From: Parabacteroides faecalis
Lineage (GTDB): Bacteria > Bacteroidota > Bacteroidia > Bacteroidales > Tannerellaceae
Assembly: GCF_022809355.1 (NCBI RefSeq)
Contig: NZ_JAKZMM010000042.1
Location: 1 to 35,058 of the forward strand
Direction: 5' to 3'
Length of the DNA stretch: 35,058 nucleotides
Numbering within the stretch: position 1 is the first letter of the stretch; each line of letters starts with the position of its first letter. Made by a program: the position numbers and the translations under genes. This document shows, in pieces, positions 18,007 to 33,058 of this stretch. The notes beneath the pieces are model-generated. The model did no database searches and was not told where the DNA came from. It was given only the letters and a program-made list of their open reading frames with translations.

Positions 18007-18693
18007 TTATTTCTCTACTATTTTCATTGATTTAATCTTTATATTCTTGAGCGGACGGTCTTCCGTATTGGTCTCAACCATCTGAATCTTGAATACCGTC
18101 TTCATGCCACTTACGACTTCTCCAAATACCGTGTATTTGTCGTCGAGGTCCGGACGTCCGCCTTCCAGCATATAAGCCTCGCGTTGTTCGGCTGTAAACT
18201 TCTTGTTCTGTTCCTTCTCCATCTTGTCCAGTTCCATCTCGGTAAAGAATTTCCCGGTCACGATGTAGAACTGCGAAGCCGACGAGGCCCGTTCCGGATT
18301 TACATCATCGCTTGTCCGGGCCGCACACAAAGCACCTGCCTTATGGAAATGCTTCGGATAAACAATCTCAGCTGGAACTGTATAATCCGGATCACCGTCA
18401 CCCAGATGTTTGTCTGCCGGCGCATCCTTCGAGTTAATATCGCCTGCCTGAATCATGAATTGCTTGATCACGCGGTGGAATAACAGGCCATTGTACAGGT
18501 TATCCTTCACATTCTTGATAAAATTATCCCGATGCAAAGGCGTATCGTTATACAATTTCACCTTGATCTTCCCCATGTCGGTGTCGATTTGCACCAGAAT
18601 TTCCTTCTCCTCCTGCGCCTTTGCCTCTGCGAAAGGAACAGACAAAGCCATCATGGCTATCAGCAAACTTGTCAATAGGCGTTTCATCATCAT
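18007..18693 (-). CDS. Cyclophilin-type peptidyl-prolyl isomerase, exported
   Basis: This 228-residue protein begins with a signal peptide (MMMKRLLTSLLIAMMALSVPFA, cleavage near AEAKA), so it is periplasmic. There it would help fold exported proteins. The cyclophilin domain is evident in HRDNFIKNVKDN, GLLFHRVIKQFMIQAGD, ASSASQFYIVTGK and the final GEVVSGMKTVFKI. It is closely similar to the next gene, pointing to a tandem duplication with later change in cellular location. The promoter is at 18732-18739. One of three ATG codons in a row (residues 1-3) is the start. Confidence 0.92.
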   Translation of the reverse strand: MMMKRLLTSLLIAMMALSVPFAEAKAQEEKEILVQIDTDMGKIKVKLYNDTPLHRDNFIKNVKDNLYNGLLFHRVIKQFMIQAGDINSKDAPADKHLGDGDPDYTVPAEIVYPKHFHKAGALCAARTSDDVNPERASSASQFYIVTGKFFTEMELDKMEKEQNKKFTAEQREAYMLEGGRPDLDDKYTVFGEVVSGMKTVFKIQMVETNTEDRPLKNIKIKSMKIVEK

Positions 18694-18900: not shown

Positions 18901-19626
18901 ATGAGAGACTATCAGTTAGGCTTTATCTCTAATGAGAATATATTTAATCATGTGAAAGAAACGGTAGAGTTGTATCGTAATCACATTAATCTGAAAGAGT
19001 TTAATAAAAATATTATTGATCCTATCAAGTTGACTTTTGATTCAAAGGTATATGGAAAAAGCCTGGAAGAAATCATTGAATCAGAATGTATCCGCCAAAT
19101 AGACAAAACCAATACCAATCATATCGGGTATTTTCATCAGAATCTGTTTAAATATGCTGGTAATGGTTGGGAAGTTCCGACCACTGGATTCGACATTATT
19201 AATCCGCAACTGCATATCTTTGCAGAATTGAAAAACAAGCATAATACGATGAATAGTCGTGCCGCAGACAGTGTTTACCGCCACATGCAGGATAAAATCC
19301 TTCATGATGACCAAGCAGTGTGTATGTTGGTAGAAGTGATTGCCTCGAAGTCTCGTAATGAAAAGTGGCTTTATGATGGTTTGTCTCATGAAAAGATACG
19401 TCGTGTTTCTATCGATAAATTTTATAGTATCGTTTTTGGTGATGATGATGCTTTTTTCAAATTGTGTCGTGCATTACCTGATGTGTTGGATGATGTTATT
19501 GCTGAATTACAACGAGGTTCCATAGAAAATAGTGTTTATGAAGAACTTCATCAACTTTCTCCTGATACGTTCAAAAGTCTTTATTTGCTTGCGTTTAAAA
19601 CTTATGATGGATTCCAAAACTTTTGA
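18901..19626 (+). CDS. Eco47II-family type II restriction endonuclease
   Basis: This 241-residue protein resembles the Eco47II family of type II restriction enzymes, whose members cut GGNCC- or GGWCC-type sites. A PD-(D/E)xK nuclease core is visible: GFD (Asp98), then FAELKNK with Glu109 and Lys111, followed by HNTMNSRAADSVYRHMQ. It would cut unmodified incoming DNA. The methyltransferase gene starts 3 bp after its stop, so both share the promoter at 18847-18877. The exact recognition sequence is an inference from family membership. Confidence 0.85.
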   Translation: MRDYQLGFISNENIFNHVKETVELYRNHINLKEFNKNIIDPIKLTFDSKVYGKSLEEIIESECIRQIDKTNTNHIGYFHQNLFKYAGNGWEVPTTGFDIINPQLHIFAELKNKHNTMNSRAADSVYRHMQDKILHDDQAVCMLVEVIASKSRNEKWLYDGLSHEKIRRVSIDKFYSIVFGDDDAFFKLCRALPDVLDDVIAELQRGSIENSVYEELHQLSPDTFKSLYLLAFKTYDGFQNF

Positions 19627-19629
19627 TTT

Positions 19630-20859
19630 ATGCAAAAAATAATATCTGCCTCTAACTTTGCAGACATTATGGGGGTGTCTAAGGCCACTTTGCAGAAGTG
19701 GGAAACAAATGGTGCTTTCGTGCCTTCCATTGATCCTGCAGGAAGAAAGTTTTTTTATGTAGAAAAATTATTGGGTGTTCCGGAAATTAGCGATATGGTA
19801 CAATCTTCATGGGAAGAGGAAATGCAAGTGAATCCATTACGCTCTTATACGTCTATAGAATTGTTTGCAGGAGCAGGAGGGCTTGCTTTGGGACTGGAAA
19901 AGGCTGGTTTTTCTCATATCCTATTGAATGAGATAGATCATGATGCCTGTGTGACATTGCAATATAATCGTCCCGAATGGAGGGTTGTGGAGCAAGATGT
20001 CAGAACTATTTCTTTCAAACAATTCAATGGTAAAGTCGATTTCCTCTCCGGAGGTTTCCCTTGTCAGGCATTTTCTTATGCAGGCAAACAAGGAGGGTTC
20101 AATGATACGAGAGGAACTTTATTTTTTGAGTTGGCTCGTGCCGTAAAAGAAATACAACCCAAAGTGTTTATGGGCGAAAATGTTAAAGGGCTTGCCGCTC
20201 ACGATGGAGGACGTACATTGGAAACAATAAGAAACACAATTGCAGAATTAGGTTATACCTTGATAGAGCCTCGGGTTCTGAAAGCCATTTTCTATCAAGT
20301 GCCTCAGAAGCGAGAACGGTTGATTCTTGTCGCTATCCGGAATGATATTGCTGATAAAGTTCAATTCAAATGGCCGGATCCATATCATCGGATCATGACT
20401 TTGCGGGATGCTTTTTTCAAAGGTGAATTATATGATACTGATGTTCCTCCTTCCGAGGGGCAAACATATCCTCTTAAAAAACAAAAAGTGATGGAACTTG
20501 TACCGATGGGGGGATATTGGCGCGATTTGCCTCTTGATGTACAAAAAGAATATATGGGTGGTAGTTTTGAATTGGAAGGGGGGAAAACAGGAATGGCTCG
20601 AAGGCTTTCTTTGGACGAACCTAGTCTGACTTTGACTTGCGCACCAGCTCAAAAACAGACCGAGCGTTGTCACCCAACGGAAACTCGACCACTGACAGTG
20701 AGAGAATATGCTCGTATACAGACATTCCCGGATGAATGGAAATTTGCAGGAACACTTAGTTCGCAATATAAACAAATAGGGAACGCTGTTCCGGTCAATT
20801 TGGCGTATGCTGTTGGTCGTTCACTCATCCGACTTTTCAATGATATCGAAAGCCTTTAA
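19630..20859 (+). CDS. DNA cytosine-5 methyltransferase with N-terminal HTH
   Basis: This 409-residue enzyme transfers a methyl group from S-adenosylmethionine to cytosine C5, protecting the host from the partner nuclease. The motifs are in order: ELFAGAGGLALGLE (motif I, 77-90), GGFPCQAFSYAG (motif IV, 141-152, catalytic Cys145), ENV (motif VI, 183-185), QVPQKRER (motif VIII, 223-230), and QIGNAVPVNLA (motif X) near the C-terminus. The variable target-recognition region lies between VIII and IX. The first 50 residues are an extra domain, ISASNFADIMGVSKATLQKW..., which looks like a MerR/excisionase-type helix-turn-helix. In other systems such N-terminal domains let the methyltransferase regulate its own operon. 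Its 3' end overlaps the convergent vsr gene by 39 bp. Confidence 0.93.
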   Translation: MQKIISASNFADIMGVSKATLQKWETNGAFVPSIDPAGRKFFYVEKLLGVPEISDMVQSSWEEEMQVNPLRSYTSIELFAGAGGLALGLEKAGFSHILLNEIDHDACVTLQYNRPEWRVVEQDVRTISFKQFNGKVDFLSGGFPCQAFSYAGKQGGFNDTRGTLFFELARAVKEIQPKVFMGENVKGLAAHDGGRTLETIRNTIAELGYTLIEPRVLKAIFYQVPQKRERLILVAIRNDIADKVQFKWPDPYHRIMTLRDAFFKGELYDTDVPPSEGQTYPLKKQKVMELVPMGGYWRDLPLDVQKEYMGGSFELEGGKTGMARRLSLDEPSLTLTCAPAQKQTERCHPTETRPLTVREYARIQTFPDEWKFAGTLSSQYKQIGNAVPVNLAYAVGRSLIRLFNDIESL

Positions 20860-21363
20860 CTCCCCATACCCCGCTTCTCCCTCAGCTGCCAGGCTGGGGG
20901 AATTTTCTTCTATTCCATATGTTTTAAGTGGTTTGGGCTTGAAATGCTCCAGGTAAGTGTGGTTGATGTGGTACTCCATTTCTTGCAATGTCTGTTCGCG
21001 GACAGCAGGTTTCAACTGGCATTCCCAGATGGTCATCACCCGCCAACCCATTTTCTTCAGTTTCGCCTTGTCGCGTTCATCCCGTTGCTTGTTCCGTTCG
21101 ATTTTCTTCTTCCAAAAGTCCGTGTTGCTGTGTGGAATATGGCCATCCGCCTCGTGGCCGTGCCAAAAACAGCCATGGATGAAGATCACGATGCCGTATT
21201 TGCGTAATACAATGTCGGGCGTACCCGGCAACTTCTTCACATTCTTACGATAGCGGTAGCCCCGGTGGTACAAGTAGCGGCGGACGATAAGTTCCGGCTT
21301 CGTGTCCTTGCTTTTGATCCTCGCCATGACGGCCGAGCGTTTCTTCTTGTCCCAAATATCCAT
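20821..21363 (-). CDS. vsr: Very short patch repair endonuclease Vsr
   Basis: Vsr nicks next to T:G mismatches that arise when 5-methylcytosine deaminates, and is often encoded beside cytosine-5 methyltransferases as here. The 180-residue protein shows SKDTKPELIVRRYLYHRGYRYR, GTPDIVLRKYG with catalytic Asp50, and FIHGCFWHGH (61-70) with the catalytic and zinc-binding histidines. WRVMTIWEC follows. It is about 25 residues longer than E. coli Vsr (156). I set the start at 21363 (MDIWDKKKRS): the open frame runs on to 21717 through the tandem repeats, but a promoter element at 21382-21389 lies inside that extension. It is convergent with, and overlaps, the methyltransferase gene. Confidence 0.92.
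   Translation of the reverse strand: MDIWDKKKRSAVMARIKSKDTKPELIVRRYLYHRGYRYRKNVKKLPGTPDIVLRKYGIVIFIHGCFWHGHEADGHIPHSNTDFWKKKIERNKQRDERDKAKLKKMGWRVMTIWECQLKPAVREQTLQEMEYHINHTYLEHFKPKPLKTYGIEENSPSLAAEGEAGYGELKAFDIIEKSDE
20879..20906 (+). terminator. Terminator of the restriction-modification operon inside vsr
   Basis: CCCTCAGC (20879-20886) pairs with GCTGGGGG (20893-20900), 8 bp with one T-G pair and a 6-nt loop, followed by AATTTT. It lies 20 nt after the methyltransferase stop and within the coding sequence of the vsr C-terminal tail. Confidence 0.5.
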
Positions 21364-21389: not shown

Positions 21390-21438
21390 CTAATTCGAAA
21401 GGAAAGCTTGAAGGAATTTTACAGAAGTAAAAACATAA

Positions 21439-21732
21439 TTCGTTGGACAGAATTTCATTTCCCAGATAAAGAAAATCAGATTCGTTGTACAGAATTTCAT
21501 TTCCTAGATCAAGGAAATCAGATTCGTTGGACAGAATTTCATTTCCTAGATCAAGGAAATCAGATTCGTTGTACAGAATTTCATTTCCCAGATAAAGAAA
21601 ATCAGATTCGTTAGACAGAATTTCATTTTCTAAATCGAGGAAATCAGATTCGTTGTACAGAATTTCATTTTCCAAATTAAGAAAATCAGATTCGTTGTAC
21701 AGAATTTCATTTTCCAAATCAAGAAAATCAAA
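21439..21732. repeat. Seven tandem 42-bp repeats, each two 21-bp hairpin half-units
   Basis: Seven copies begin at 21439, 21481, 21523, 21565, 21607, 21649 and 21691. Each starts TTCGTT and ends AATCAGA (the last AATCAAA). Offset by 4 bp, every unit reads as two half-units of 21 bp. The first pairs AGATTC with GAATTT around an 8-nt loop (GTTGTACA type), plus C. The second pairs ATTTCC with GGAAAT around an 8-nt loop, plus C. The second arm pair covaries: CC/GG in copies 2-3, TC/GA in copies 6-7, and TC/GG in copy 5. Because 42 is a multiple of 3, a frame stays open through the array on the minus strand; I do not regard it as coding. Confidence 0.9.
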
Positions 21733-21821
21733 TTCTGCCTAAATGGTTATATTTTTTTGAAAGATAGTTGATTATAGAGGGAAAATGTATATATTTATGG
21801 CGAACATATAATTTTAGTGTT

Positions 21822-22568
21822 ATGAGTGCAATTTTAAAACCTGAAGAATTTTATTTCCCAAAGCTCAACAACGCCGAATTTGCCTTTTTTGCCGGGCAAA
21901 TTTGCGCGTATGTGGAAGAGGGGACTGTCGAAGCCCTGCATGCGCCGGAAGAAACCTATCTGGCGTTCTATGGAAACTACAATAAGTTGGTGGAACTGGT
22001 CAACCAAAGCCGGATCGCCTCTGAAACGGCCCGGATCACGGAACTGGACAAGCAGGAAGATGATTTGCTGACGTATTTCTTCTCTACGATCAAGACGGGG
22101 GCCAATCATCCGAACCCGACGAAGCGGGAGGCGGCGCAAGCCCTGCAAAATGTGGTGAAACCGTATTTCGGCGTGCAGTCGTTGCCCCAACGGCAGCAGG
22201 TGCAGGCCGTCGATGGCTTGTTAATGGATTTGAAGAAGAGCGAAAACATCGCGCACATCACGGCGCTGGGAATGACGGAAGATTTGGTCTATTTCGAAGA
22301 GTTGAATGGCGAATACCGGGAGCTGATTGACAGCCGTGCCGCCAGCCAAATGGCTAATCCTGCCGAATCGGTCAAATCCATCCGCGAAGAAATGTATGTC
22401 CAGTATGACACGATCGTGACGACGATCTTTGCTTTCAGCATCGCTACGCCGTCTGATGTTCTTACGGCTTTCATTACCAAGGTGAACAAACTGATTGCCG
22501 ATACCAACCAGGCGTATAACCAGCGCATGGCGGAACGGTCGAAATCAACCGAAGAAAACAAGGCTTAA
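21822..22568 (+). CDS. DUF6261-like protein of unknown function
   Basis: This 248-residue, probably cytosolic protein is mostly helical and has no signal peptide or membrane segment. The pattern of a short N-terminal KLNNAEF motif, a central SETARITELDKQEDDLLTYF, NPTKREAAQALQNVVKPYF, and a C-terminal set of helices resembles DUF6261 proteins of Bacteroidetes. Their function is unknown. I chose the ATG at 21822 because the longer start at 21768 would lie over an AT-rich promoter-like stretch (TATATTTA at 21790-21797). The base composition is clearly more GC-rich than in the restriction operon. A strong terminator follows. Confidence 0.65.
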   Translation: MSAILKPEEFYFPKLNNAEFAFFAGQICAYVEEGTVEALHAPEETYLAFYGNYNKLVELVNQSRIASETARITELDKQEDDLLTYFFSTIKTGANHPNPTKREAAQALQNVVKPYFGVQSLPQRQQVQAVDGLLMDLKKSENIAHITALGMTEDLVYFEELNGEYRELIDSRAASQMANPAESVKSIREEMYVQYDTIVTTIFAFSIATPSDVLTAFITKVNKLIADTNQAYNQRMAERSKSTEENKA

Positions 22569-32967: not shown

Positions 32968-33058
32968 ATCATCTAATACTATCTAATATCATCTAAATAT
33001 TATAATCAATACAATACATTATTTTCATATCATCTAAATATTTTCTAGTATCATCTAA
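32968..33058. repeat. Short phased repeats (ATCATCTAA) beside tRNA-Ala
   Basis: ATCATCTAA or a close variant occurs at 32968, 32978 (ACTATCTAA), 32988, 33029 and 33050. The first three are spaced 10 bp apart and the others 41 and 21 bp, that is, close to whole helical turns. The run starts 11 bp after the tRNA. It may be a set of protein-binding sites, for example integrase arm-type sites. Confidence 0.6.

Follow-up and report, generated by a model that had tools for sequence, protein, structure and literature searches.

The stretch analyzed here (the window, 35,058 nucleotides of Parabacteroides faecalis DNA) contains a tandem array of palindromic repeats between vsr and a divergent gene of the DUF6261 family, and the question that this locus raises is to which neighbor, if any, such an array belongs and at what level it acts. 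A first-pass annotation, made from the sequence alone, placed the array in the gap upstream of vsr; this location is right, and the array also lies upstream of the DUF6261 gene, which is the informative neighbor. The relevant features are the following.

21417–21432, no strand assigned: perfect small palindrome TTTTAC-AGAA-GTAAAA just outside the array (from the sequence; paired in the fold)
21436–21729, no strand assigned: register in which 14 half-units, alternately A-type and B-type, read as 6-8-6+1 inverted repeats (from the unit alignment)
21438–21735, no strand assigned: tandem array of a roughly self-complementary 42-bp unit with two inverted-repeat centers 21 bp apart (from TRF, unit alignment and symmetry)
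21790–21797, plus strand: candidate promoter -7-like element TATATTTA between the array and the DUF6261 gene (recognized by eye only)
21822–22568, plus strand: DUF6261 protein of 248 amino acids, predicted to be all-helical, pI 4.8 (PF19775 at 130.2 bits; AlphaFold2)

Structure of the array and its surroundings

To the left of the array are the genes for an Eco47II-type endonuclease, a C5 methylase and, on the minus strand, vsr (21363–20821). This segment (18901–21363), with vsr convergent and the ends overlapping by about 39 bases, is an ordinary restriction-repair island.

TRF reports the array with a period of 42, 7.1 copies, 90% matches and no indels, and the unit alignment yields seven exact 42-mers (21439–21732) with 9 variable columns out of 42, in full agreement with the seven exact copies given in the first-pass annotation. 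The division into 14 half-units of 6-nt arm, 8-nt loop, 6-nt arm and a C, proposed there as well, holds as a register: when read from 21436, each 21-bp half-unit is a 6-8-6 inverted repeat plus one base. As a set of hairpins it does not hold throughout, given that the outermost pair of hairpin A is lost in copy 1 (copies 2–7 of this hairpin contain a G-T pair) and that the best fold of 21415–21745 is one long branched hairpin, which is preferred over 14 separate hairpins because neighboring arms run into each other. The minimum free energy of this fold on the plus strand is -97.9, compared with a mean of -52.4 for 100 shuffles (z -10.6), and the minus strand yields z -10.3. The fifth pair of hairpin B reads C/A, C/G, C/G, C/A, T/G, T/A and T/A from copy 1 to copy 7; all four combinations are present (2, 2, 1 and 2 times), so that the two sides are uncoupled, and the covariation previously claimed for this pair, which omitted the C/A pairs of copies 1 and 4, does not stand. 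A simpler description is a 42-bp unit that approximately matches its own reverse complement around two centers spaced 21 bp apart; in the window unit, 13 of 21 pairs are complementary (z 2.6 against shuffled units). The palindrome at 21417–21432 is possibly a decayed edge unit of the array.

A sequence search found no second copy of the window array in its own genome and no clear relative among 59 other genomes (best E 1e-4). Two-copy 21-bp repeats are present elsewhere in the window (33020–33058 and 18201–18240), one of them 62 bp past tRNA-Ala and one within a cyclophilin-type gene; such short two-copy repeat families may be due to chance.

Linkage of the arrays to DUF6261 genes

The array is one member of a linked protein-plus-repeat pair, and the linkage to DUF6261 genes is firm, to the point of being virtually certain. 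In the genome that contains the window (G000), all 12 DUF6261 genes found are immediately preceded by a 41–42 bp tandem array, and the sequences of these arrays are mostly unrelated; the gene count is at least 12, given that the HMM search scored 12 of 21 candidates. By comparison, in a 400-kb sample of the same genome without DUF6261, an array accompanies 5 of 265 mechanically predicted genes (p 2e-17 for the difference from 12/12). Beyond this genome, TRF identifies upstream arrays at 70 of 89 DUF6261 loci of the same genus (Parabacteroides) and at 7 of 14 loci from other genera, compared with none in 103 downstream control stretches; a cruder control, the region 700–1400 bp past the start codon, contains arrays at 3 of 66 loci.

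At 26 of the 103 loci, no array is detected by TRF alone. An autocorrelation analysis over lags 25 to 59, which involves no TRF score threshold, places the best repeat lag at 41–43 in 96 of 101 upstream stretches (mostly from the same genus), compared with 9 of 100 downstream; the 96 include 23 of the 27 loci for which TRF gave no single-unit array. In a later set, with 16 of its 19 loci from other families of the order, a lag of 41–43 was found upstream at 15 loci and downstream at 3. Altogether, arrays beside DUF6261 genes were found in several families and classes of Bacteroidota. Second gene copies (L042, L060, L063, L065 and L067) were removed before counting, and two loci with too little upstream sequence were left out of the autocorrelation; also left out were L119, L120 and L126, which tblastn did not place (L120 and L126 nonetheless show 42-bp upstream arrays), and, from the later set, L375 (not placed by tblastn) and L280 (a fragment with a stop).

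The distance from the array end to the DUF6261 start codon ranges from 10 to 415 bp, with a median of 120 bp. The upstream neighbor is on the minus strand in 38 cases and on the plus strand in 35, with no neighbor in 3; because this split is nearly even, the array goes with DUF6261. Thus, vsr was rejected as the partner of the array, and a link to the restriction island is not supported: arrays track DUF6261 whatever the strand of the other neighbor.

Conservation of period and symmetry

The periods of the 76 single-unit arrays identified by TRF are 42 bp in 52 arrays, 41 bp in 21, 43 bp in 2 and 40 bp in 1, so that 73 of 76 fall at 41 or 42 bp. A length of 41–42 bp corresponds to four turns of B-DNA, and 21 bp to two turns. 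The sequence mostly differs from gene to gene, and close paralogs can share an array (e.g., L077 and L078).

For symmetry, stems and polarity, the near-duplicates L058, L064, L066, L078 and L129 were excluded, leaving 71 arrays for the symmetry count. The unit consensus contains on average 11.83 complementary pairs about the best center, compared with 9.70 ± 0.11 in shuffled units; individually, z is above 2 in 38 of the 71 arrays and below 0 in 9. By a stricter count, a unit contains 1.23 stems, compared with 0.68 ± 0.08 in shuffles, and in 16 of the 20 two-stem units the centers are 19.5 to 21.5 bp apart (40% in shuffles). Thus, the helical period and, on average, the symmetry are kept, and the sequence is not. 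Double changes in stems are paired in 9 cases and unpaired in 9, and because these numbers are equal, stem compensation inside the arrays is unsupported.

These results bear on the remaining parts of the first-pass annotation. The conserved pairing geometry and the step of two helical turns noted there are correct, with the evidence coming from other loci and not from the window array itself. The features named there as speaking against such an element, namely other copies without preserved arm pairing or a simple minisatellite unique to this strain, do not characterize the array class; yet the genome contains the sequence of the window array only once, and, taken singly, 33 of 71 arrays do not exceed shuffles at z 2. 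Among the three suggested readings, a binding array, a phase-variable spacer or a structured RNA, helical phasing favors an array that acts at the DNA level.

Tandem arrays with half of this period (21–22 bp), also palindromic, occur in the window's genome, apparently as three dispersed families, grouped by eye: L148:18235, L150:14585 and L153:10884; L151:13528, L157:12082, L158:2846 and L167:7608; and L161:18653, L162:19565 and L164:9092. DUF6261 was not found in the stretches that carry these arrays.

Dispersed and solo arrays

A search with the array of locus L104, from a Parabacteroides metagenome-assembled genome (G019), yields 18 matches at E below 1e-40, nine in G019 and nine in G026, of which two are cut by contig ends and three adjoin DUF6261. 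The 16 aligned copies occur in both orientations and have common edges about 270 bp apart; read by eye, they start with AAAACGT in 13 cases and end with ACGTTTT in 15. The family consists of discrete ~270-bp elements with terminal inverted repeats. Palindrome A appears in these elements as TTGCG/CGCAA, TTGTG/CACAA, TTTGGT/ACCAAA or TTTCC/GGAAA, and its middle pair is C-G 21 times, T-G 21, T-A 11, C-A 8 and G-C 9; given these counts, the C/T and G/A changes are hardly coupled. Arrays of two other loci also occur elsewhere: the L072 array, from the window's genome, has two further places where DUF6261 was not found, and the L127 array, from another class, has four other places, two of them at contig ends.

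In most cases, linked and solo arrays resemble each other only up to about the array edges, indicating that the DUF6261 gene is not carried along, and no solo copy that carries the gene was seen. The exceptions are L201, L202, L213 and L215, where similarity continues upstream, and L209 and L211, where it extends 60–80 bp towards the gene. The flanks of L209 and L211 were looked up and no clean empty site was found; the matching place in G019 lacks the L209 array and contains about 1.4 kb of other sequence instead. As a separate observation, the L104-family arrays of L198, L199, L202, L206, L215 and L218 follow mutually similar stretches that are the ends of upstream genes, as if array and upstream gene end formed one exchange unit.

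Samples of 400 kb contain 30 solo arrays of 41–42 bp period in G009, 6 in G000 and none in G011, where the HMM finds no DUF6261. Across 10 genomes, which are not independent, solo array density follows the DUF6261 count (rho 0.87, p 0.001, uncorrected for kinship), in samples of 100–400 kb with four of the five zeros coming from 100 kb each, and with gene counts from one protein query, which finds 9 genes in G000 and none in G013, where the HMM finds at least 12 and 1, respectively. G010 departs from the trend: it has 21 DUF6261 copies, yet its 100-kb sample contains only 2 solo arrays. The sample of G033, which comprised five contigs shorter than 1 kb, was left out. In G009, 13 of the 30 solo arrays match a linked array, and for 11 of the 13 the best match is a linked array of G009 itself (expected share 0.25, p 1e-5). 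No match to the 69 linked arrays compared, which did not include every linked array of these genomes, was found for 6 of 6 solo arrays in G000, 5 of 5 in G019, 2 of 2 in G010, 17 of 30 in G009 and 8 of 9 in G026.

The DUF6261 protein

The window protein matches PF19775 well above the Pfam gathering score (cut-off 27), and its AlphaFold2 model, with a pLDDT of 94.3, consists of helices only. PF19775 is its only Pfam match at E 1e-3, so that no Pfam nuclease or transposase domain was found, and searches of Pfam, NCBIfam and PADLOC give no match besides DUF6261. Eight members of the family were scanned as well, with only weak matches far under the cut-offs (e.g., an IS256-type transposase for L102, 21.1 bits against a cut-off of 150; the best PADLOC model for L108, E 0.002). 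A Foldseek comparison with PDB and BFVD reveals no match at E 0.001, and no relative of the L104-type protein was found in a viral collection. A literature search, with most subscription journals outside its scope, found no report of DUF6261 together with repeats; the family is mentioned in a paper on Streptococcus oralis. DUF6261 proteins are acidic (pI below 6 in 91 of 103), which is unexpected for a DNA binder and speaks in favor of a partner protein or of an indirect role.

A structural second look suggested an S23/Avd-like protein. The S23 (23S_rRNA_IVP) four-helix bundle (2rld, BT_0352) was compared; its family, PF05635, is unmatched by the window protein at E 1e-3, and the idea was rejected because 30 S23 loci lack any 40–43 bp array by TRF. 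Some S23/IVP genes are bracketed by short tandem repeats, seemingly inverted copies across the two sides (L171:1425–1469 and 1866–1903; L194:1416–1469 and 1848–1891; L176:586–1044 and 1727–1803).

Several DUF6261 paralogs have a common C-terminal stretch with 82–92% DNA identity (L104, L108 and L109, over the last ~342 bases; also L102, L103 and L110, and L258, L262 and L265), with little or no DNA match reported between the first parts of several such pairs. Judging by sequence, this pattern suggests domain exchange or gene conversion.

A possible mechanism

The best supported reading is that a DUF6261 gene and its phased palindrome array form a pair, in which the array works at the DNA level from a position upstream of the promoter, and that arrays can spread unaccompanied by the gene. 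In the mechanism that we propose, the palindromes would be double-stranded DNA sites for a dimeric protein; spaced by two helical turns along the same face of the DNA, they could allow a filament or cluster to assemble, and the array, just upstream of the promoter, would set DUF6261 expression. The DUF6261 protein, alone or with a DNA-binding partner, would in turn help to maintain or multiply its cognate arrays, by analogy with RAYT and REP/BIME; such an action is suggested by the linkage, by the dose relation and by the matches of G009 solo arrays to linked arrays of their own genome. Taken as a whole, this two-part mechanism, regulation through phased sites plus maintenance of the arrays, has a reasonable chance of being right, short of an even one. 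A bolder version is rather doubtful, namely that DUF6261 is the first known protein of a new repeat-keeping class, an acidic, helical non-transposase that makes or maintains chromosomal copies of its own array, with paralogs tied to their own repeats and a dozen or more pairs per genome.

Comparison with known systems and alternative explanations

The nearest known protein-repeat pairing is REP/BIME with RAYT. RAYT is an HUH/Y1 transposase whose gene is delimited by two inverted REPs; REP/BIME are alternating palindromes in regular arrays, and RAYT has been proposed to keep or multiply them, according to the available parts of these reports (PMC2817692, PMC3116915, PMC3733652). The DUF6261 pairs likewise combine alternating palindromes in regular arrays, a gene adjacent to the palindromes that belong to it, related copies at other places in the genome for some of the loci, and an abundance that follows the gene. 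Unlike RAYT, DUF6261 is predicted to be all-helical and has no HUH/Y1 transposase match, its array is upstream, and the period is fixed near four turns. As regards flanking of the RAYT type, period-42 arrays were found upstream and at none of the 103 downstream stretches, a count of tandem arrays by TRF. Cognate palindromes elsewhere in the genome were found for L104, L072, L127 and some loci of G009, and not for the window array. A further parallel is the F plasmid centromere sopC, which consists of tandem 43-bp repeats, each with an inverted repeat, bound by SopB. The period of about four turns, the single inverted repeat per unit and the position of the array beside the genes of its binding protein are shared features; in contrast, sopC is a single plasmid locus with a ParB-type protein, and no such domain was found in the window DUF6261.

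The arrays could be operators only, that is, phased sites for a regulator of DUF6261 expression, either a host factor or DUF6261 itself, with the solo arrays as further targets and nothing mobilized. The strict 41–42 bp period, the symmetry and the strand polarity that is not significant are compatible with this explanation, as is the promoter-like element that, by eye, follows the array in many loci (the Bacteroidota -7 consensus is TAnnTTTG). However, the dispersed L104 copies form complete elements of ~270 bp that have inverted-repeat ends and occur in either orientation, three of the six gaps with an array in the G000 sample are flanked by convergent genes, and some arrays reach to within 10–48 bp of the start codon, where a promoter would hardly fit in between. 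Furthermore, within one genome hardly any two loci have the same unit sequence (L077 and L078 do), so that almost every gene would need its own regulator. Operators alone appear unlikely, while remaining the most serious competitor of the two-part mechanism.

Alternatively, the array could be transcribed as a hairpin repeat RNA that is paired with DUF6261 in the manner of type III toxin-antitoxin systems. In these systems (e.g., ToxIN), short, locus-variable tandem repeats located just upstream of a protein gene act as RNA, and the toxin is an endoribonuclease. The DUF6261 arrays resemble this arrangement in being directly upstream of a protein gene and in varying between loci, and the window array folds far better than shuffles, but both of its strands fold equally well and it has no Rfam match at the gathering score. 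On the DUF6261 strand, G.T events outnumber A.C events, 83 to 62 (21 to 10 cells in the dispersed L104 family); counted by array, however, the excess is not significant (p 0.067; 0.051 and 0.129 in earlier counts), so that the strand polarity that an RNA should show amounts to no more than a tendency. Moreover, the DNA-helix period is kept, for which an RNA hairpin has no need; the promoter-like element is, by eye, downstream of the array in many loci; and the window protein, predicted to be all-helical, has no ToxN/AbiQ/CptN/TenpN-type match. Together, the helical period and the weak polarity point to DNA, and an RNA role is improbable.

The arrays could also belong to a repeat-bearing MITE that favors the 5' flank of DUF6261 and is moved by an unrelated transposase. 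Porphyromonas gingivalis, another species of the Bacteroidales, harbors the nearest known repeat, BrickBuilt. As described in the accessible part of the source, this MITE is a dispersed, intergenic minisatellite of tandem 23-nt units with inverted-repeat ends, present in 19 copies in ATCC 33277 and forming one sequence family with no BLASTn match beyond the species; a partner gene is not reported in that part (Klein et al. 2015, PMC4596501). The L104 family, with its MITE-like ends, similarly consists of dispersed intergenic tandem repeats within an element with inverted-repeat ends. In contrast to the BrickBuilt unit, the DUF6261 arrays have symmetric 41–42 bp units (42 in the window), are mostly locus-specific and occur in one copy per DUF6261 gene. 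That 96 of 101 loci share one period although their array sequences are mostly unrelated, and that this extends over several families and classes, is a regularity that disfavors repeated independent insertion, and the rarity of downstream arrays, in the cruder control too, also speaks against a hot spot, which we regard as a poor prospect, about on a par with the RNA. The DUF6261 arrays fit neither known family: their unit length sets them apart from BrickBuilt, and no HUH transposase of the RAYT kind accompanies them.

Finally, an ordinary slippage minisatellite or a coding repeat is very improbable: a single open frame of 98 codons does run on the minus strand from vsr, in its frame, through the array, but both the presence of the arrays and their period are conserved in different parts of the phylum, and the coding repeat was rejected because a period of 41, found in 21 of 76 arrays, is as real as 42, so that no reading frame is kept.

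Implications

Returning to the pair of DUF6261 and its phased palindrome array, a Pfam family without known function gains a close genomic partner, an array that is conserved in period and symmetry and not in sequence. The pairing makes possible a direct test of whether DUF6261, alone or with a partner, binds or multiplies its array. It also suggests an origin for part of the load of palindromic minisatellites in Parabacteroides and related genomes, and may represent a second, unrelated case of the protein-repeat pairing known from RAYT and REP.
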